49,453 nucleotides of DNA from Candidatus Poribacteria bacterium (GTDB lineage: Bacteria; Abyssobacteria; SURF-5), in contig JACRIR010000233.1 of the NCBI GenBank assembly GCA_016215705.1, positions 1 to 49,453 of the forward strand, in the 5' to 3' direction. Both the position numbers and the translations under genes were made by a program. The notes under the pieces are model-generated. The model did not search any database. It had not been told where the DNA came from and saw nothing but the letters and a program-made list of their open reading frames with translations. Each line of letters starts with the position of its first letter. Within the stretch, counting starts at the first letter, position 1. Shown piece by piece: positions 10,395 through 49,271 of the stretch.

Positions 10395-10914
10395 CTTCTC
10401 AACCTGTCCGTTCGAAATGTTGAATCCCCGTGGTGATTTCTCCTTTTCCATGAAATCCGCGTGAATCAGTTTGAATCAATGGACTTCTTCATTCGTGATT
10501 CAACTCTTCTTCCTCTTTTTCCTTTTGTTTCTTCTTCCCTGAATCTGTGCAAATCAGCGAAATCTGCGAATCTCCTCTTTTGCTCCCCGTTTCCCCATTC
10601 TTCTGGTATCCGCATTCATCGGCGGTTACAAAGAGTTCTTCTTCTTGCGATTTCATTCCGCATTCATCACTCATCATTTCTCGTCGACTCCCTTTTCCCC
10701 CTTGTTTCCCGTGCGCTTATGCTATAATGTGCTGAGTCACTCAAATAATGAGGAGCGCCTGGCCCCTCCTGCGCGAGGTTAATTGTGAAAGAAAGATGGA
10801 GCGAGATAACTCTCTGTAACGTCATTCTGAGCGAAGCGAAGAATCTCTCTTCTTCTTTGGTTCTTCCCCTTTCGCCTTTGACCTTTTACCTTTGCCCTCT
10901 TTCTTAGGAGTCTC
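10395..10914. repeat. Intergenic repeat mosaic
   Basis: No gene is seen. Phrases include GAATCTGTGCAAATCAGCG.. (10541-10572, related to the inverted repeats at 44279 and 44716), a 'CCGCATTCATCGGCGGTTAC' phrase (about 10609-10628, related to 764-789) and, at 10820-10847, the well-known wandering phrase GTCATTCTGAGCGAAGC.. found in many phyla. The strand is C/T-rich up to the Shine-Dalgarno of the methylase. Confidence 0.7.
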
Positions 10915-41280: not shown

Positions 41281-41909
41281 ATACGCCGGAGCCTGTCGAC
41301 CTCCAACATTCCTGTCATTCCCACTCTTGCTTCGTCATCTCCGAGAGAAGCTTGTCCTCGACCCGATCGGGACGGGAATGCATCGGCACTCCCGTCATTC
41401 CCGCGAAAGCGGGAATCCGTTCTTATTACTATTAGAATATCTTCTTAAGTATACTGTTTGAATTCGACATAATGGTGGGCGCCGTCAATGTGCCTCCGGC
41501 CGGTCGGCGCACAAACTTTCCCCCCACCCGCTTCGGCCATTTCTCAACATCAGGAACATCCTCTCCCTCCACCGCTCCGAAAACACCAGAAGGACCGGGG
41601 ATAGAATGTAACCAAAACATTGAGAGCACAACGGTTACAACTAAATTATATATGAACGACCATGCCATGTCAACAAAAAAAGAAACAAACAAAAACTCCG
41701 GAACACGAATCACACGAATGAGAACCGAATGACACGAATAAAGATTTCCTTATCCGCAGACAGCGCAGATTCCGATATTACGTCTATCGGCGTTAATTTG
41801 CAGTTCCCGTATTCTCAGTTTCTTCTTGGTTCCAATCCAAAATCTAAAATCCGAAATGAACAGAAACCCCGCGCGCTTCGCGCGGTTCCCTTTCGCCCAT
41901 CGCCTCCGT
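41281..41909. repeat. Intergenic leader and repeat mosaic before pilMN
   Basis: No convincing gene. It holds the consensus promoter (41645-41673), a hairpin TTCCCGC-GAAA-GCGGGAA (41398-41415) in a CCCGTCATTCCCGCGAAAG.. phrase known from many genomes, 'CACGAAT' periodic units (41701-41741), 'TTATCCGCAGA..' (41750-41773) and 'CCAAAATCTAAAATCC' (41835-41850). The minus-strand frame at 41432-41713 has a hydrophobic start but no ribosome site, and most of it lies downstream of the promoter. Confidence 0.6.
41645..41673 (-). promoter_or_regulatory. Perfect consensus sigma70 promoter for pilMNOPQ
   Basis: On the minus strand: TTGACA (41673-41668), exactly 17 bp, TATAAT (41650-41645). Transcription would start near 41638 and give a leader of about 360 bases before pilMN. 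GTAACC/GGTTAC arms just after the start could form a stem. Confidence 0.75.
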
Positions 41910-44261
41910 TTATCGGAACTGCTCCTGCCTGAGCTTCGTCCCTGTTCCCGTGCCTTTCTCGAGCGTCTGCCCTGCGGGCGCTATGACTTTGATGCGAATG
42001 GTCGCGGGAGCAAATTCGTAATTCACGTCCGATGAGTTTTGCCTTCTCAGCAAGTCTTCGGCCCTGAACGAGATGTCATATGTTCCATTGACGGGTGCAC
42101 CCGTGCTGTCCGTGAAGGTAATCGTGACGGCGTAGGGCTGGGAAGACCCGCAGTCCGGGACTGTCCCTGAGGAAGTTCCCAAAGACGGAGCGGTTCCCAC
42201 TGGAGTAACCTGCCACGAGTACGTATAGTAAGGCGCCTTTTTGCCATCCAGAGTCTGAGAACCTACGGCAATGCAAGTTGGAGGCGGGCTTGGGTTAATC
42301 GGGTCTGTGCTCGGCGCGCCGCCCTCTCCGAACACAAGGAACTGCAATTGATTGTTGGAAGGCAGTGTCACGGTCGCCGACGGCGCTTTGAGCAAAAGAG
42401 TCTTGCGGTTGAGCACCCTCAAATTATAGGTCTCCGAATCCGTCTCGCCCGCCGGGTTGCTCAGATCGCGGATTCCGATTTCGAGAGGATAGGTTCCCGG
42501 CGCCTGCGTTATCGCAACGGTACCCTCAACATATATTCTGAAGGAACCACTCACCCCGGTCGGAAGGCTGCTGGTCCCCGCAAGGGTATGAGTCGGCGGA
42601 GTAGCTGTCGGATCATCAACCCATAGCGACAAGTTATTGACGGGAGGATTAAGACTCGAACTCATTGTGGGATAACTTGGCGCATAGTAGATGTCTCCCG
42701 CGGCGCCACTGTTGTCAATAGTCGTGGCGACTATAAACTCCGGTACCATATCCGTTGCGGCGGGCCCGTAATTGATACCTTTGACATGATCTTTGAATTT
42801 CTTAGGCAGGAGTGTGACTCCAGACGATTTGACTTCAAGCTTGTACGTGACCGTTGCGGTTTCGGTTGGGGTTGATCCGTCGGTCAGTCTGAGCGTGAAT
42901 GTGTACACTCCGTCGTTTGTCGGCGTTCCTGAGAGAACGATGCTCGAACCCGTTGCCGTACAGCCGGAGACTCCTGACGTGAATGACAGGCCTGGCGGCA
43001 GCGAGCCTGACACCAAACACCACGTGTATGTGGCGGTTCCGCCGACGGCCGAAAAAGTCTGGCTGTACGCGCTGTTTTTGATAGCGGTCAGGTTTGTGTT
43101 GGACGGACTTATCGCCAATCCGGCGATGTGAATGGTGAATTGCCTTTGGGCCGTTTGGGCCGGAGATGAATCATCGGTCACTTCCAGCGTGAATGTGAAG
43201 TCGCCGGGGGTCGTCGGTGTCCCCGTTATCGAGTAGTCGTAGTTGGGAGAGCCGGTGTTTGCGCCGGAGAGCCCGGTCGGCAAGCTTCCTGACAATGTGG
43301 CCCAACTGTATCCGTCTACGTCTGTTTTGCCGCCCGCTGCGTCAACTTCCTCGGCGTAAGAAACGTTCTTGGCGCCGTCGGAAAGCGAGCCTGTGGCAAT
43401 CATGAGCGGAAAAGCTCCGCCGCTGACGGGGTCCCATTGCGCCTCGACGCGGATGTCGTATGTATTGAGTCTGTCATCGGAACCATCTTTTTGCATCGAT
43501 CGAGTTCGCACAGCGACCAGGCCGTCTATATCCGTATTGGCGGGGAGAAACACGCCTCCGACGGTCTCTTTTGTGGGATTATCGTCGATCGAGAAAGTGC
43601 TGACTTGCGCCGTGAAAGAGCCGATGACGTTCTGGATGTTGTCGCTTGCCGCCCAATTGGTGAATCCCCCCGGGAAATAGCGCTCGAGCAAAAGCGTATT
43701 TGTCGACGTGTTTATGCTCTTGATAAAGGCGGCATCCTGCGGAACCTGTGTCGTATTGAGAACCGTGTTTCCGACCGCGAGGTTCGTTTCGCCCGAGTCG
43801 CTCCCATAAGTGATCGTAAACCGCACCATTTCATTCCAGTTGGGGTCCGTGGCGGTGGCTCCCTGGACGGTGTATTGAATTTCCCACTGGTCGGCCTGGT
43901 TGCCGGTTGCATCCCTGACCACATAGAGTCCCACGTTACGAATGAACGACGTGGTTTGCTGAAACGCGGACCAGCGTCCGCTGAACGTGAACGTCGTGTC
44001 CGCTGTTGCTCCGTCACCCGAGAAATCGGCGTTCGTGTATGTAACTGCCGCCGTGTTCAGATTCTCGTCGAACGCGAAGTTCACGCGCTGAGTCGAGGCG
44101 ACCGTGCCCGCGTATGTGTTCGAGATGCCGAGCGACGGCCTGAACGTGAATGTCTGTGCCATCACTTTCATCGATCGCAAGAGCAGCAGTCCAAGCAGGC
44201 AAAAAGCCAGCGCAAACACGACTCCCGTCGTAATATATCTATTACCCTCTCGACCGCTCAC
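41910..44261 (-). CDS. Secreted Ig-like repeat protein (He_PIG type) in the pilus operon
   Basis: A 783-residue exported protein. An N-terminal membrane helix or signal peptide ('VVFALAFCLLGLLLLRSMKVMAQ') is followed by a beta-rich region and at least two putative-Ig (He_PIG) domains, recognisable by 'SGSLPTGLSG..' then 'GTPTTPGDFTFTLEVTDDS' and 'SGSLPPGLSFTSG' then 'GTPTNDGVYTFTLRLTDGS'. It also contains one copy (about residues 157-223) of a module found three times in the neighbouring GspK-like protein. The start is a GTG at 44261 with AAGGAG eight bases upstream; the inverted repeat of the nuclease cassette ends just beyond this site. It is probably a surface or pilus-tip adhesin; binding target unknown. 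Confidence 0.7.
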   Translation of the reverse strand: MSGREGNRYITTGVVFALAFCLLGLLLLRSMKVMAQTFTFRPSLGISNTYAGTVASTQRVNFAFDENLNTAAVTYTNADFSGDGATADTTFTFSGRWSAFQQTTSFIRNVGLYVVRDATGNQADQWEIQYTVQGATATDPNWNEMVRFTITYGSDSGETNLAVGNTVLNTTQVPQDAAFIKSINTSTNTLLLERYFPGGFTNWAASDNIQNVIGSFTAQVSTFSIDDNPTKETVGGVFLPANTDIDGLVAVRTRSMQKDGSDDRLNTYDIRVEAQWDPVSGGAFPLMIATGSLSDGAKNVSYAEEVDAAGGKTDVDGYSWATLSGSLPTGLSGANTGSPNYDYSITGTPTTPGDFTFTLEVTDDSSPAQTAQRQFTIHIAGLAISPSNTNLTAIKNSAYSQTFSAVGGTATYTWCLVSGSLPPGLSFTSGVSGCTATGSSIVLSGTPTNDGVYTFTLRLTDGSTPTETATVTYKLEVKSSGVTLLPKKFKDHVKGINYGPAATDMVPEFIVATTIDNSGAAGDIYYAPSYPTMSSSLNPPVNNLSLWVDDPTATPPTHTLAGTSSLPTGVSGSFRIYVEGTVAITQAPGTYPLEIGIRDLSNPAGETDSETYNLRVLNRKTLLLKAPSATVTLPSNNQLQFLVFGEGGAPSTDPINPSPPPTCIAVGSQTLDGKKAPYYTYSWQVTPVGTAPSLGTSSGTVPDCGSSQPYAVTITFTDSTGAPVNGTYDISFRAEDLLRRQNSSDVNYEFAPATIRIKVIAPAGQTLEKGTGTGTKLRQEQFR

Positions 44262-44278
44262 AAAACCATCTCCTTTTT

Positions 44279-44309
44279 ATCCGCAGATTTCGCAGATTAG
44301 CTCAGATTT
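44279..44309 (+). repeat. Left terminal inverted repeat of the nuclease cassette
   Basis: Three imperfect ~10-bp units, CCGCAGATTT, CGCAGATTAG and CTCAGATTT. The TGA stop of the GxxExxY gene lies inside it (44302-44304). Confidence 0.75.
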
Positions 44310-44712
44310 CTTCCTTCGATTGAGCTACTTTGCCGTTTTGGTTAATAAATCGTCTAAATTCCAATGAGGAAGCGCCGAAGTTTACCAACAATCCCACCGT
44401 CTTTCTGGTGGCTTTCAAATAATTGATGATCTGAGACTCCTCTGTTGAAGTCAGCTTCGGAAGAGCTTTCAGTTCCACAACGACTGTATCTGCAACGAGA
44501 AAATCCGGACTGTATTTCTTATTCAAGACAGTGTCCTTATACCGGATATCAATCTGCGGCTCAGAGAAGTATAACATACCTTTCCGAGTCATCTCGATGC
44601 TGAGAGCTTCATGATACACAGGTTCAAGGAAGCCTGGCCCAAGCTCCGAGTGCACCTCCATCGCAACGCCGATGACCCCATAAGTAATGTCTGAGAACGG
44701 GTACTTTTCCAT
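44302..44712 (-). CDS. GxxExxY protein (PD-(D/E)XK nuclease-like)
   Basis: A 136-residue member of the GxxExxY family. The name-giving motif is 'ELGPGFLEPVYHEAL' near residue 27, and the nuclease-like core is 'KKYSPDFLVADTVVVELKAL' (D then E-x-K, near residues 72-88), followed by 'QIINYLKATRKTVGLLVNFG'. The family is small, scattered and of unknown function. No Shine-Dalgarno precedes the ATG at 44712; an upstream TTG at 44727 lies inside the right inverted repeat. The stop is inside the left repeat. The gene is therefore entirely enclosed in a repeat-bounded cassette inserted in a pilus operon in the same direction as its neighbours. Confidence 0.85.
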   Translation of the reverse strand: MEKYPFSDITYGVIGVAMEVHSELGPGFLEPVYHEALSIEMTRKGMLYFSEPQIDIRYKDTVLNKKYSPDFLVADTVVVELKALPKLTSTEESQIINYLKATRKTVGLLVNFGASSLEFRRFINQNGKVAQSKEEI

Positions 44713-44715
44713 TTC

Positions 44716-44746
44716 AGATCTGTGCAAATCCGCGAAATCTGCGGAT
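44716..44746 (-). repeat. Right terminal inverted repeat of the nuclease cassette
   Basis: Reverse complement of 44279-44309 with four mismatches. It ends four bases before the ATG of the GxxExxY gene, so it forms the whole leader of that gene. Confidence 0.75.
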
Positions 44747-44759
44747 TCCAGTCTTTCCC

Positions 44760-47700
44760 TTATCTCTGATAAATCATCTCGAGCTTCTTCTCCGACGTGA
44801 TCTCGTTATTCTCGATGATGCCGTTATTGTTCGAGTCGCTCGCGGCCTGGCCCAGGACGATTATCTTATAGATATCCGACCTGGTGGTTATCAGGCTCGA
44901 GACATTTGCGAACACGTCCGGCGTGAAATTCGGATCGACTTCGCTGACACGATAGATGTCGCCGATCGATTTGAACGCCGCTATGTTGCGGGCATCGAGA
45001 ATGTTTGTCGCGATTGCATCGGTGACGCCGGGCAACCCGCGCAACACGCGTTGGCTCGCGTTATTGGCGCTGATGCGCCCGAATGTCTCCGGCGGCGGAG
45101 CAAGTATCGCGCGCATGAAGTGGTATTGCGCGGCCGCCGCGTCCGCGTTCTGAATCGTCAGGCTGATAGTCGCCTGCCGTGTTGTGGCATCCTTTTCGGT
45201 CGTGATCGGGCCGACGAAAATAGGCGATTCACTTTCGATCGTCGAGCCATAATTCACAATACTATAGAGATTGTACGTTCCTTCGCGGACGCCGTCATCT
45301 TCGTCCCATTTCAACTCGAAATCAGTGCCGGCGCCTGCATCCACCCGGTACACTGTCGGATTGTCGGCATTGGGCCAATTCTCGGGATTGTCACCCGAGC
45401 CGCCGGCCTGCACTTCACCTGCCGCTGCTTCGAGGTCTATCATAGATGTCGATAAGTAGTCCACGAGGCCGCGCGCGTCGGCTGATTTCTCTCTCACAGT
45501 CGCGATGTCCGCAGTGAACGTGCCCCCATTGTCTATGTTTTCGCCCTTCTCCCAGCGCGCAACGGGATTGGCCGGATCCATCACCAGTTGTATTATCTTG
45601 CTCGTCGTATCCACCTGCGTTACGGTCCCCGTTTGGTCGGGGTCTTTGGAAGTGTTTGTGATGGTGTCGCCGACAGAGGGGTCATTCGTATTGTTTGCAT
45701 ATTCGATCTCGACATAGAAATCCAATTGGTCGCCCAATGTCGTATCCAAAGCCTTGATTGATTTGATGTCGGCAGAAAATCCGCCCGAGCTTATGATCTC
45801 GTTCAGATTCCATGTGTTTACGGGGTTTGAATAATCTCCTCTCACGACCATCCAGCCGTCGGGGGCATATCCCGGGCCTGCCGATTCCTGACTTCCTGCA
45901 TCCGTGTGAATCGAGACCAATGCAGCGGTTTGCTGAGGCGTTTTATAAGTGTTGGTCATTACGGCCGCTCCCGGGATGAGCGTTGTGTCGGCGGCGCTGC
46001 CTGTGCGCAACTGGTATCCGATGAGGGCGAAAAACTCATTGTTGAAAGGCATGTTCGCGATCTCGCCAACACTCGAGAAGAGGCGGTTCTTGACGATGCT
46101 TTCCGCTGTCGCAACCCTCTCGGAATAGTTCGTGCTCCGGTTGTTCTCTTCAGCCGGAGTCATGAAACCGCTCGAACCGCGTGAGTCGGGCGAATATCCC
46201 ACGAACTCGCCTGCGGGAGTAATCAAGTCCGACGAACTATAAATGAACGTGTCGTTCCAGAACTTCCAGTCGTCGTAATTCCCATCCGCCAGAACGTTAT
46301 AGTATGTCGGAGCGAAAAAGGAGGCGTCATAGCCACGCATCCTGAAATTGTTGAAGACCTGACCTGCGCTCTGAACCTGATTAAGCCGATCGCCGGGGCT
46401 GGCAGGATGCTCCCGCTGCAAGCTGGCAAACGCTTCGGCAACGTTGCCCGCGTCGTATGTCACGCGGTCAATAAGATTGCCATTCGCATCATAGAGCGAT
46501 ATCCTTCCCACTTCGACGCCCGAGACGACGTCGTCAAGACCCGACCCCGTGCCTCGCACATCGGCAGCGATTGAATTATTCGAGGGATTATCCAGCGGCT
46601 CGTTGCCGAAGAAGTCTATCCATGGAGTATAGATATTTGTGATGGCAGTGAACTGATAAATATTGACGCTGGAGGCTAGCGAAGACCATGTATTATTGAA
46701 CGAAATCCCGTTGCTCACGGTCGCGCTGGAGCCGGTCAGGTCGTTTCTGTCTACTGTGAACACGATGTGCTGTGGCGGAGCAGGCGGATTTGAAGTGGTG
46801 TTGTTGACCGGGAGTATGCCGACATTGGGTAGTGTGAGTTGGTATATTTCCGAATAGTATCGACTCGATGTCGGCGTATACGTTATCGGCGGATTTGAAG
46901 CGACCATGCTCCAATCTTCAAGGCGCTCGGAGACCAATATCCAGTTGTTTACGTTCACTGTCTCATTGCTGAGATTGACGAGCTCAATCCATTCGCAGTC
47001 GGGTTCCTGCGTAAAAAAGAACCAGTCGACGTCGACCGTGTCCAGGGTACCTGTCCCGACCATCTGTGGCTTTTCCAGCCAGATGGTATTGGTTCCGCCG
47101 CTCAAGGCCAAGTAGACGGTGTTTGTGCCGTCATACATCTGCGTAGCCTCCTCGACATACCAACGGCTGTATTGATTCGGAGAAGGAGGCTGCTGCACAG
47201 TGCCCCATCTGCATGTGGTATTTGCAGGGACAGCCCAAAACGGAGGAGTATTAGGAGGACCCGAGTCCTGACCCAGTCTCGAGTCGACCACAAGATAAAT
47301 CTGAGAACTGGCTCCGTTCTGAAGCCAAACGCGGAAACCCCTATCGTTGCCGTTCGACAAACTGCTTCCTCCGTCACTCCGCACACGCATTCGCAGTTTG
47401 AACACGTAAGTGGAAGAGGCTGAGAAAGGAGGGGTGGGCAGAACTATTGATAGGGCAGCAGTTGGTTCATCGTTATTCGTGGCATCCTGAAGGTTTGTCA
47501 GATATCCTTCCGCGCCTCTCGGGGTGATTGCACCGGCGGCGGCCCCCGGAACCACGGCTGTCCACTCCGTGGTTGTCCAGTTCGGGTCCTCCGCCTCGTA
47601 CAAGTTCGTGGCCGCGCGCGCGAGCACCTCATTGATACGTATCGCTTCGACGCCCGCGAATGCGTCGCCGGCTGTATCACTAATCTCGTTTCGGAAATTA

Positions 47701-49217
47701 TTGCGGTCGCGGTAATCATAAATGTTGGCGGCGACCTGCATGTTGCGCAGGTCGGGCCGCTCGAAGGCGTCGGTATCGCCCGTGCCGGTCGCCGGAAACG
47801 CCGCATGCACGGTCGCCACGTTCTGGTCAGGAGTCGAGAAGTTCGGATTGATCCTGAGTTCTCCGTCCTTATTCAAGTTGTGATCCAATGAATTTGTGGA
47901 AACAAAATTGCGGCGCTCGCGGTTGGTATTCGTGGAACCGTCGTAGTTGGTGCTGAGGCTATTGGTCAAGAAGGCGTTCCCGAGGTTGACTCCCTCAGAA
48001 TCGGCGAGTTGCTCGAGCGTGAGTATCGGCTGGTCGTCGGCCTCGTTGGTCTCGTCGGTCACTGTATCGCTGTCATCATTCAACTGATTATAGTCCAGCG
48101 GGCTGCCCCGGTACGGCCGCAGCGGGCGGAACTCCTCTTGCTCATTCACACCCTCACCCGATTCATCGACTGAGCCGTCTCCGTCATTATCAACGCCATC
48201 TGTCGCATAGAAGTAGCGATTGAAACCATCGTCGTCGTCATCGAAGGTGGCGGGCGTGCCCGGGGTAGTGTCAAGATTGCCCTGGCCGCCGACGAGAATG
48301 CGGTTTGAGTCCGCGCCGGCGCTCACGTTGGCCGTTGTGCTCGAGCCCGGCAAACCGTTCCTATACAGAACTATCTTTTTTGGCGCAGCCGGGGTCGCTG
48401 CAAACAAACTCAAATCGAGTCCATTTTCCAGATTTATCTCGAATGTGCTCCACCCCTCGCTTGCCGAATGAGAGTAAGTCGTATAGTCGCCGGCCGTTGC
48501 TCCGATACTCGCGAGATTCCCCGCCGCGTTGATGTTTATCTTGCCGGTTTCGTCTTGAACGAGCACAGCGTAGCGCCCGAGCAGTTCGCCGCTCTCATCG
48601 TAATAATTGCGCCAGACGGCGTCGTTGGTCCCGTCGCCGTCGATGTCGACTTCGTCGGGCTTGGATACGGCAGATATTGTGGCATCGAAGGCGCCGCCAC
48701 GTTCGACCAGACGGTCGGTCACTTGCCAGGGAGCGGTGGAGACGGAATTCAGATAAATCCGATTATTGGTCGTGTCAACGCTAATGACCTCGGCGGTGGC
48801 CAGATAGCGGTCGGGGTATGGCGGCGAAGGTTCGGGGTCGGATATCACATTTGTGACAATATCTCCGGCTGTCAGCCCGGCTTCGCTGACCGGGGGCTCC
48901 GTGTATTCAATAACGACCGGCGCGGTGAATTCGGTGCGCCACTTATCAACCAGCGAGTCGAATGTTTCGGTAATGGGGACAGTCGGATCGAGCGGGTCGC
49001 CGGTGCGATATATCTTGTCCGCCTTGAGAACCGCAATGGCGTTGGCGAGGCCGGCCTCGGCGACGTCGCTCGCGGTGACCGTGCGCATGTATGCTTCCGA
49101 AGCGCGCAGGCTCATGCGTGTCGCGAACACGAACGAAACCGCGATAAGCGTCAGCAGCGCCAGTATCCCCAGCACCACAACCAGCACCGCGCCGCTATTC
49201 GAACCACGGATTTTCAT
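44760..49217 (-). CDS. Giant GspK/PilX-like minor pseudopilin with inserted lamin-tail domain
   Basis: A 1,485-residue protein. The N-terminus has a prepilin-like segment 'NSGAVLVVVLGILALLTLIA' and the helix 'MRTVTASDVAEAGLANAIAV', as in PilX and GspK. The C-terminus has the GspK helix-hairpin-helix pattern 'RVLRGLPGVTDAIATNILDA' and 'AFKSIGDIYRVSEVDPNF'. Classical GspK is about 330 residues; the excess includes a calcium-type run 'DGVDNDGDGSVDESGEGVN', 'DWFFFTQEPDCEWIELVNLS' with 'VNVNNWILVS' (a lamin-tail domain) and three copies of a ~60-residue module. The ATG at 49217 is preferred over a GTG at 49262 that lies in a repeat. It probably caps the pilus or a secretion pseudopilus and displays the inserted domains outside. 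Confidence 0.75.
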   Translation of the reverse strand: MKIRGSNSGAVLVVVLGILALLTLIAVSFVFATRMSLRASEAYMRTVTASDVAEAGLANAIAVLKADKIYRTGDPLDPTVPITETFDSLVDKWRTEFTAPVVIEYTEPPVSEAGLTAGDIVTNVISDPEPSPPYPDRYLATAEVISVDTTNNRIYLNSVSTAPWQVTDRLVERGGAFDATISAVSKPDEVDIDGDGTNDAVWRNYYDESGELLGRYAVLVQDETGKININAAGNLASIGATAGDYTTYSHSASEGWSTFEINLENGLDLSLFAATPAAPKKIVLYRNGLPGSSTTANVSAGADSNRILVGGQGNLDTTPGTPATFDDDDDGFNRYFYATDGVDNDGDGSVDESGEGVNEQEEFRPLRPYRGSPLDYNQLNDDSDTVTDETNEADDQPILTLEQLADSEGVNLGNAFLTNSLSTNYDGSTNTNRERRNFVSTNSLDHNLNKDGELRINPNFSTPDQNVATVHAAFPATGTGDTDAFERPDLRNMQVAANIYDYRDRNNFRNEISDTAGDAFAGVEAIRINEVLARAATNLYEAEDPNWTTTEWTAVVPGAAAGAITPRGAEGYLTNLQDATNNDEPTAALSIVLPTPPFSASSTYVFKLRMRVRSDGGSSLSNGNDRGFRVWLQNGASSQIYLVVDSRLGQDSGPPNTPPFWAVPANTTCRWGTVQQPPSPNQYSRWYVEEATQMYDGTNTVYLALSGGTNTIWLEKPQMVGTGTLDTVDVDWFFFTQEPDCEWIELVNLSNETVNVNNWILVSERLEDWSMVASNPPITYTPTSSRYYSEIYQLTLPNVGILPVNNTTSNPPAPPQHIVFTVDRNDLTGSSATVSNGISFNNTWSSLASSVNIYQFTAITNIYTPWIDFFGNEPLDNPSNNSIAADVRGTGSGLDDVVSGVEVGRISLYDANGNLIDRVTYDAGNVAEAFASLQREHPASPGDRLNQVQSAGQVFNNFRMRGYDASFFAPTYYNVLADGNYDDWKFWNDTFIYSSSDLITPAGEFVGYSPDSRGSSGFMTPAEENNRSTNYSERVATAESIVKNRLFSSVGEIANMPFNNEFFALIGYQLRTGSAADTTLIPGAAVMTNTYKTPQQTAALVSIHTDAGSQESAGPGYAPDGWMVVRGDYSNPVNTWNLNEIISSGGFSADIKSIKALDTTLGDQLDFYVEIEYANNTNDPSVGDTITNTSKDPDQTGTVTQVDTTSKIIQLVMDPANPVARWEKGENIDNGGTFTADIATVREKSADARGLVDYLSTSMIDLEAAAGEVQAGGSGDNPENWPNADNPTVYRVDAGAGTDFELKWDEDDGVREGTYNLYSIVNYGSTIESESPIFVGPITTEKDATTRQATISLTIQNADAAAAQYHFMRAILAPPPETFGRISANNASQRVLRGLPGVTDAIATNILDARNIAAFKSIGDIYRVSEVDPNFTPDVFANVSSLITTRSDIYKIIVLGQAASDSNNNGIIENNEITSEKKLEMIYQR

Positions 49218-49234
49218 AGTAGAAAAGGCCTTTA

Positions 49235-49271
49235 TTAACCACGGATTTTCACGGATTTTCACGGATTAAAG
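49235..49271. repeat. 'ACGGATTTTC' tandem phrase
   Basis: TTAACCACGGATTTTCACGG.. contains three 10-base units of ACGGATTTTC type. Widespread intergenic phrase of environmental bacteria. The codons after the ATG of the GspK-like gene (AAAATCCGTGG) resemble it too. Confidence 0.7.

Follow-up and report, generated by a model that had tools for sequence, protein, structure and literature searches.

The locus analysed here raises a simple question: why does a single gene of the GxxExxY family, a widespread and uncharacterised group of nucleases, sit between inverted repeats in an intergenic gap of a pilus operon? The window, meaning the whole stretch of DNA that was analysed, comprises 49,453 nucleotides of a Candidatus Poribacteria contig. 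An earlier note on this DNA had seen a mobile-looking cassette at 44279-44746 and had proposed that its protein may mobilise or maintain a family of repeats scattered through many genomes.

The cassette of the window and its words

The cassette lies between an Ig-domain gene and a gene of pilus/secretion type. The features needed for the argument are the following.

10541-10572, minus strand: gene-less decayed array of the cassette's word (GAATCTGTGCAAATCAGCGAAATCTGCGAATC), lying among other clustered words
41700-41773, plus strand: gene-less arrays of two adjoining words, CACGAAT at 41702-41740 and decayed CGCAGATT at 41754-41771
41910-44261: Ig-domain gene, neighbour of the cassette
44279-44309, plus strand: left word array, ATCCGCAGATT-T-CGCAGATT-AGCTCAGATTT, facing inward, matching the reverse complement of the right array at 27/31
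44302-44712, minus strand: intact GxxExxY gene for a PD-(D/E)XK nuclease, 136 aa from its ATG
44716-44746, minus strand: right word array, read on that strand as ATCCGCAGATT-T-CGCGGATT-TG-CACAGATCT, facing inward
44760-49262: large secretion/pilus-type gene, 1500 aa, HHH_3-bearing, neighbour of the cassette

The terminal inverted repeat around the intact gene (44279-44309 and 44716-44746, 27 of 31 positions) matched exactly as had been claimed. No other pair of 31-mers spaced 400-560 bp apart in the window reached 22/31, shifts of the cassette pair excepted, and the sole inverted repeat returned by a repeat search of 44000-45000 was 29 nt long with 90% identity. Copies of CGCAGATT in the left array are spaced by 9-10 bp. 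The stop codon (44302-44304) is located within the left arm and the ATG (44710-44712) a few bases off the right arm, again in agreement with the first description. Genes for PilM_2 and T2SSM_b are found among the further neighbours, and the label "pilus operon" is therefore fair. The intergenic gap is indeed filled by the cassette, with 17 and 13 bp to spare, which makes the former wording of an exact fit slightly too strong.

The gene product is a clear member of its family, scoring 133.9 bits against TIGR04256 (cut-off 35) and 129.6 bits against PF13366 PDDEXK_3 (cut-off 22) in profile searches. Five residues, E30, D70, K82, N111, and F112, were invariant in 65 sequences, and E80, Q94, and Y98 were nearly so, the last two forming the QxxxY motif of RecB type. 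An AlphaFold model of the window protein (pLDDT 90.8) had as its nearest folds lambda exonuclease, a Cas4 protein, the Holliday-junction resolvase Hje, and other enzymes of the PD-(D/E)XK group, all at modest TM-scores, and matched I-Bth0305I weakly. A sequence search of solved structures gave no match, the best being T7 endonuclease I at E 0.47. Pfam gave PDDEXK_3, while DDE, serine, tyrosine, and HUH transposase domains, including Y1_Tnp, were absent. Viral contigs searched with the protein yielded no relative and phage records no match, so a phage origin is unsupported. A defence role is likewise unsupported, since PADLOC returned nothing significant for the protein and PHROGs only a weak endonuclease match. 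Neither a function for GxxExxY nor the flanking words were described in the literature searched, which left most subscription journals and preprints outside its scope; an earlier description of the words or the element elsewhere is possible.

In the window, 11 copies of the word CGCAGATT were counted where 2.8 would be expected. Its tandem form CGCAGATTNCGCAGATT, with up to two mismatches, had 109 sites genome-wide, compared with 2 when the reversed sequence served as control. The gene-less copies pointed out at 10541-10572 and 41750-41773 were confirmed, although each is one decayed array without an inverted partner. The genome holds only six GxxExxY genes, and on reading their flanks all six were placed between inverted tandem words, each with a different word: CGCAGATT in the window, and CACGGATT, CACGAAT, CGCCGAT, CACGGAG, and CACGGGG. 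As the five other genes have five other words, the protein could serve no word beyond its own; the earlier proposal does not stand for the whole repeat family, and a part in moving its own word would be a candidate role. The idea that CGCAGATT arrays are a specific mark of this gene was dropped, every paralog having a different word. GxxExxY genes in two other genomes of the same family lie likewise between inverted tandem words, among them CGCAAAGG and CGCGAAT.

Within a single array the words are direct tandem repeats of the CRCNNNN type, spaced by 8-11 bp. The most frequent tandem 7-mers in 708 kb sampled from the own genome included CGCAAAG, CGCAGAT, CACGGGG, CACGAAT, CACGGAT, and CGCCGAT; these are words of own and sister cassettes, with most of the own cassette words included, and CGCAAAG, common in the own genome, is the word of a sister-genome cassette. 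The rank of CGCAGATT in this sample is biased upward because part of it was drawn from contigs known to carry CGCAGATT. Repeats of the GCGTCAC type also rank high and are without a cassette.

Other repeats were noticed alongside. At 10400-10670 the window has a cluster of at least three words (CGCAGATT, CACGAAT, and CGCCGAT types) with pyrimidine-rich spacers between them, and such mosaics recur across the own genome. A second dispersed repeat, GCGCGGCG(A/C/T)AGCCGCAACCAAA, often adjoins CGCAGATT arrays (own-genome loci L018, L020, L027, L029, and L032). The palindromic intergenic repeat GTCATTCCCGCGAAAGCGGGAATCC at 41384-41417 is presumably of a kind known from many bacterial genomes.

Inverted word arrays are general in the family and follow the nuclease clade

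For each gene, the flank upstream was compared by alignment with the flank downstream, the latter taken as its reverse complement; the threshold was a score of at least 13. This was reached by 84% of 76 GxxExxY genes, by 1.3% of 159 control ORFs from the same loci, and by 5% of mispaired flanks, i.e., upstream of one gene and downstream of another. The comparison with control genes, proposed in the earlier note, thus came out as it had anticipated. In an extended set of 126 distinct intact GxxExxY genes, 84% again had an inverted pair of tandem 7-8-nt words, with a median cassette length of 466 bp; a Verrucomicrobia batch within this set passed the threshold in 26 of 28 cases. According to a pattern check the words face inward in all cassettes except two. 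Most of a set of 34 loci, drawn from many phyla, showed this anatomy too, and so did paralogs from 16 of their genomes. The inverted arrays are thus general for the GxxExxY family, with weaker or direct-repeat flanks in distant relatives from Bacteroidota, Fusobacteriota, and Gemmatimonadota.

A tree of 99 proteins was built with IQ-TREE, and word classes were assigned by hand from automatic word calls. Word class required 26 changes on this tree, against 70.9 after shuffling (none of 200 shuffles as low). When shuffling was confined to host phyla the count never fell below 56, and when confined to genomes never below 39; host phylum itself required 35. The 15 CRCAGATT cassettes, coming from nine phyla, accounted for 2 changes. 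One clade of 35 rows (support 99/89) is almost entirely occupied by words of the AG-ending group (CAAAG, CRGAG, CGAAG, CGGGG), and in another (100/91) CAGATT, CGAATT, and CGAAA words prevail. Across phyla, a test made without a tree gave the same answer (0 of 500 permutations within genomes). A Bdellovibrionota protein that shares the word of the window protein is 60% identical to it, but identity is 47% for the sister-genome protein at the same pilus site, which has the word CACGGATT; this site therefore holds two different cassettes. The word is particular to the nuclease lineage, travels with the nuclease across phyla, and follows its clade rather than the host. Cassette words can also drift, as with the CGGATT words (4 rows, 4 changes), which counts against the explanation we prefer below.

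The genome is full of such words, and repeat-rich intergenic DNA might be thought to give paired flanks by chance or through its composition. The low rate in mispaired flanks of the same set and the tree result, never reached by shuffles, refute this reading, and its probability is negligible. Another possibility is regulation: GxxExxY would bind the arrays as operators or terminators and control its own gene and dispersed genes. The tandem sites are about one helical turn apart, their position is intergenic, and 78 of 93 cassettes are co-oriented with both neighbours, all of which would suit such a role. Whole-unit presence and absence, internal deletions, gene-less hairpins, and catalytic conservation are unexpected of a regulator, however, and we consider this reading highly improbable.

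Several individual loci deserve mention. In a Sphingomonas plasmid (L331, fabD-fabG) and a Bacteroides plasmid (L332, after radA), both complete named replicons, annotated GxxExxY genes lie between co-oriented housekeeping genes and have inverted words at both ends, CGCGAAG and CACAGAG, respectively. The GxxExxY flanks on the Fusobacteria plasmid pZRK30-1 (L329) repeat directly instead of inverted. At locus L152 (G007:C12) a GxxExxY-like domain forms part of an open frame of 528 residues, which may be a fusion; its flanks are of the CGGACT type. In four Verrucomicrobia nuo cassettes (L072, L073, L076, and L230) the sequence ...ACGAAATGACACGAAA... puts the ATG inside the left array, so that word and N-terminus overlap, and the word may supply the start of the gene.

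Presence, absence and gene-less derivatives

A junction survey was carried out on 40 nuo operons from one Verrucomicrobia family. Empty junctions measured 2-11 bp at nuoJ-K, 8-30 bp at nuoK-L, and 2-5 bp at nuoL-M, while filled ones contained full cassettes of 483-520 bp; one species had a cassette at nuoJ-K, seven species had one at K-L, and three at L-M. One 144-bp copy (L253) has kept both word ends and scraps of both gene ends and has lost the middle. The junction at the MKRKR gene in the same family also varies by species: some species have a GxxExxY cassette, one locus is fully empty (L304), one has an internally deleted cassette (L317), others have gene-less inverted pairs of other words (L314, L320, and L325) or half-arrays (L307 and L321). 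Related species thus differ in whether a given gene junction holds the unit, and copy number ranges from 0 to 12 per genome. The empty sites foreseen by the earlier note were found at these nuo and MKRKR junctions and not at the window's own site, for which no empty ortholog was found among the only three genomes available from the window's phylum. One genome (G002) had no match to the neighbouring gene of the cassette, and the only relative with this gene carries another cassette, with a different word, at the window's site.

Some flanks looked duplicated by eye, namely TAGC (L235), CATGA (L234), and TTTTCC at most nuoL-nuoM insertions; this is no more than suggestive of target-site duplication, as the insertions may share ancestry. 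At some nuoK-nuoL sites that are empty, one word-like GCCCGCGAATC is retained, and the words of the cassettes are complete at both ends.

These junctions bear on the strongest rival, that of a homing-type gene. The nuclease would then cut cassette-less alleles at word sites and be copied in by recombinational repair, the words being recognition sites and homology arms and not transposon ends. PD-(D/E)XK homing endonucleases exist, I-Ssp6803I and I-Bth0305I, the latter being the weak fold match above, and both the occupation of the same junctions by different cassettes and the single GCCCGCGAATC at empty sites fit with homing. Homing genes interrupt their recognition site, however, whereas here both ends keep complete words; in addition, three different nuo junctions are used for insertion, and the dispersed gene-less inward-facing elements described next, with their narrow size range, also speak against it. 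On balance we find homing unlikely.

Among neighbouring CRCAGATT array pairs no more than 700 bp apart in Verrucomicrobia genomes, 19 of 20 face inward and none outward. Sixteen of the pairs span 56-90 bp, and those of 423 and 433 bp contain a GxxExxY gene. Two of the short pairs, when folded, gave long hairpins (z about -7). Gene-less inward-facing pairs of about 75 bp are thus dispersed between genes. The number of GxxExxY genes correlated with that of CRCAGATT arrays over 83 genomes (rho 0.49), a crude test because all GxxExxY genes were counted and not only those with CRCAGATT words. Some genomes without a detected GxxExxY gene still have words (10 in G019), and those genomes are drafts.

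The words might also be selfish repeats moved by some other enzyme, with the GxxExxY gene as cargo caught between two arrays. Words in genomes without a detected gene agree with this, as do AATGACGAA, GATCAGTGA, and CAACGCCCAACG, which form similar gene-less inverted elements with no GxxExxY partner seen. Against a passenger gene stand the tracking of nuclease clade by word over nine phyla, the conserved catalytic residues, and the correlated numbers of genes and words; moreover, GxxExxY was the only gene noticed where arrays of these words stood close together in inverted order. We regard it as rather unlikely.

Gene-less inverted elements of further words were recorded in the same family. 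Elements of the form AATGACGAATGACGAA ... TTCGTCATTCGTCATT were present at seven nuo junctions (L220, L221, L224, L226, L240, L243, and L247); no GxxExxY partner was seen for them, and another enzyme may therefore read that word. Upstream of the MKRKR gene, inverted words without a known cognate gene were of the CAACGCCCAACG type in L298, L301, L303, L306, and L319 and of the GATCAGTGA type in L300, L302, L305, L313, and L324.

A candidate mechanism and its relation to known systems

We prefer to read the cassette as a minimal mobile element driven by the nuclease that it encodes, which would be specific for its word. We give this reading a probability of about 0.68; both the nuclease action and the binding to the word are inferred. 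The element would consist of one PD-(D/E)XK gene between two inward arrays, each with 2-3 copies of a 7-8-nt word placed about one helical turn apart. The nuclease would bind at both ends to the words that match it, perhaps as a multimer, or alternatively to the hairpin or cruciform that the inverted arrays could form, and would cut at or near the element ends. Host repair or replication would then copy the element into other intergenic gaps. We know of no transposition by a single PD-(D/E)XK enzyme, so strand joining would have to be borrowed from the host. Gene-less mini-elements would arise by internal deletion and might be moved in trans by a nuclease reading the same word.

This would provide a function for a widespread family and an origin for very common, unexplained intergenic repeats. 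A wider claim, tentative and more doubtful than the element itself, is that these units would constitute a new class of mobile DNA: a single nuclease of the PD-(D/E)XK type, with no known transposase, might move itself and its miniatures, each lineage reading its own short tandem word. If this is true, the pairs of nuclease clade and word would amount to a naturally diversified code of protein-DNA recognition, and the GxxExxY family would explain the many CRCNNNN-type tandem words dispersed in genomes of environmental bacteria. Since nature offers many pairs in which the word varies with the lineage of the nuclease, DNA recognition is directly testable and specificity residues can be searched for.

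With insertion sequences and their MITEs the unit shares a single gene, terminal inverted repeats, and internally deleted non-autonomous derivatives, but in contrast to classical insertion sequences it has no known transposase domain and its ends are iteron-like arrays. It is similar to free-standing homing endonucleases in being a lone, sporadic, intergenic nuclease gene whose sites can hold different genes, and differs from them in the complete inverted cognate words kept at both ends and in its gene-less miniatures. The Rpn (YhgA-like) recombination-promoting nucleases are multicopy, sporadic PD-(D/E)XK proteins linked to DNA mobility (PMC5350276), and were described in later work as an anti-phage toxin-antitoxin system (PMC10327210); they belong to PF04754 and GxxExxY to PF13366, which are different families.

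The closest likeness is to REPIN-RAYT (REPtron) systems, in which a nuclease/transposase gene is accompanied by inverted repeats and distinct single-copy genes occur per genome (PMC3116915). In both systems the gene is flanked by inverted repeats that are dispersed as inverted, hairpin-forming doublets. The RAYT enzyme is an HUH Y1 transposase, whereas that of GxxExxY is a PD-(D/E)XK protein without Y1_Tnp; REP sequences are palindromes of 20-40 nt tagged GTAG/CGTC, whereas the GxxExxY ends are non-palindromic arrays of tandem words; and, unlike in REPIN-RAYT, the gene-bearing cassette itself comes and goes. The unit was not classed as REPIN-RAYT because neither enzyme nor repeats are homologous; its logic resembles that of REPIN-RAYT. 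Should the nuclease drive the movement by itself, the cassette would mobilise itself with unusually simple means and would match REPIN-RAYT by convergence.
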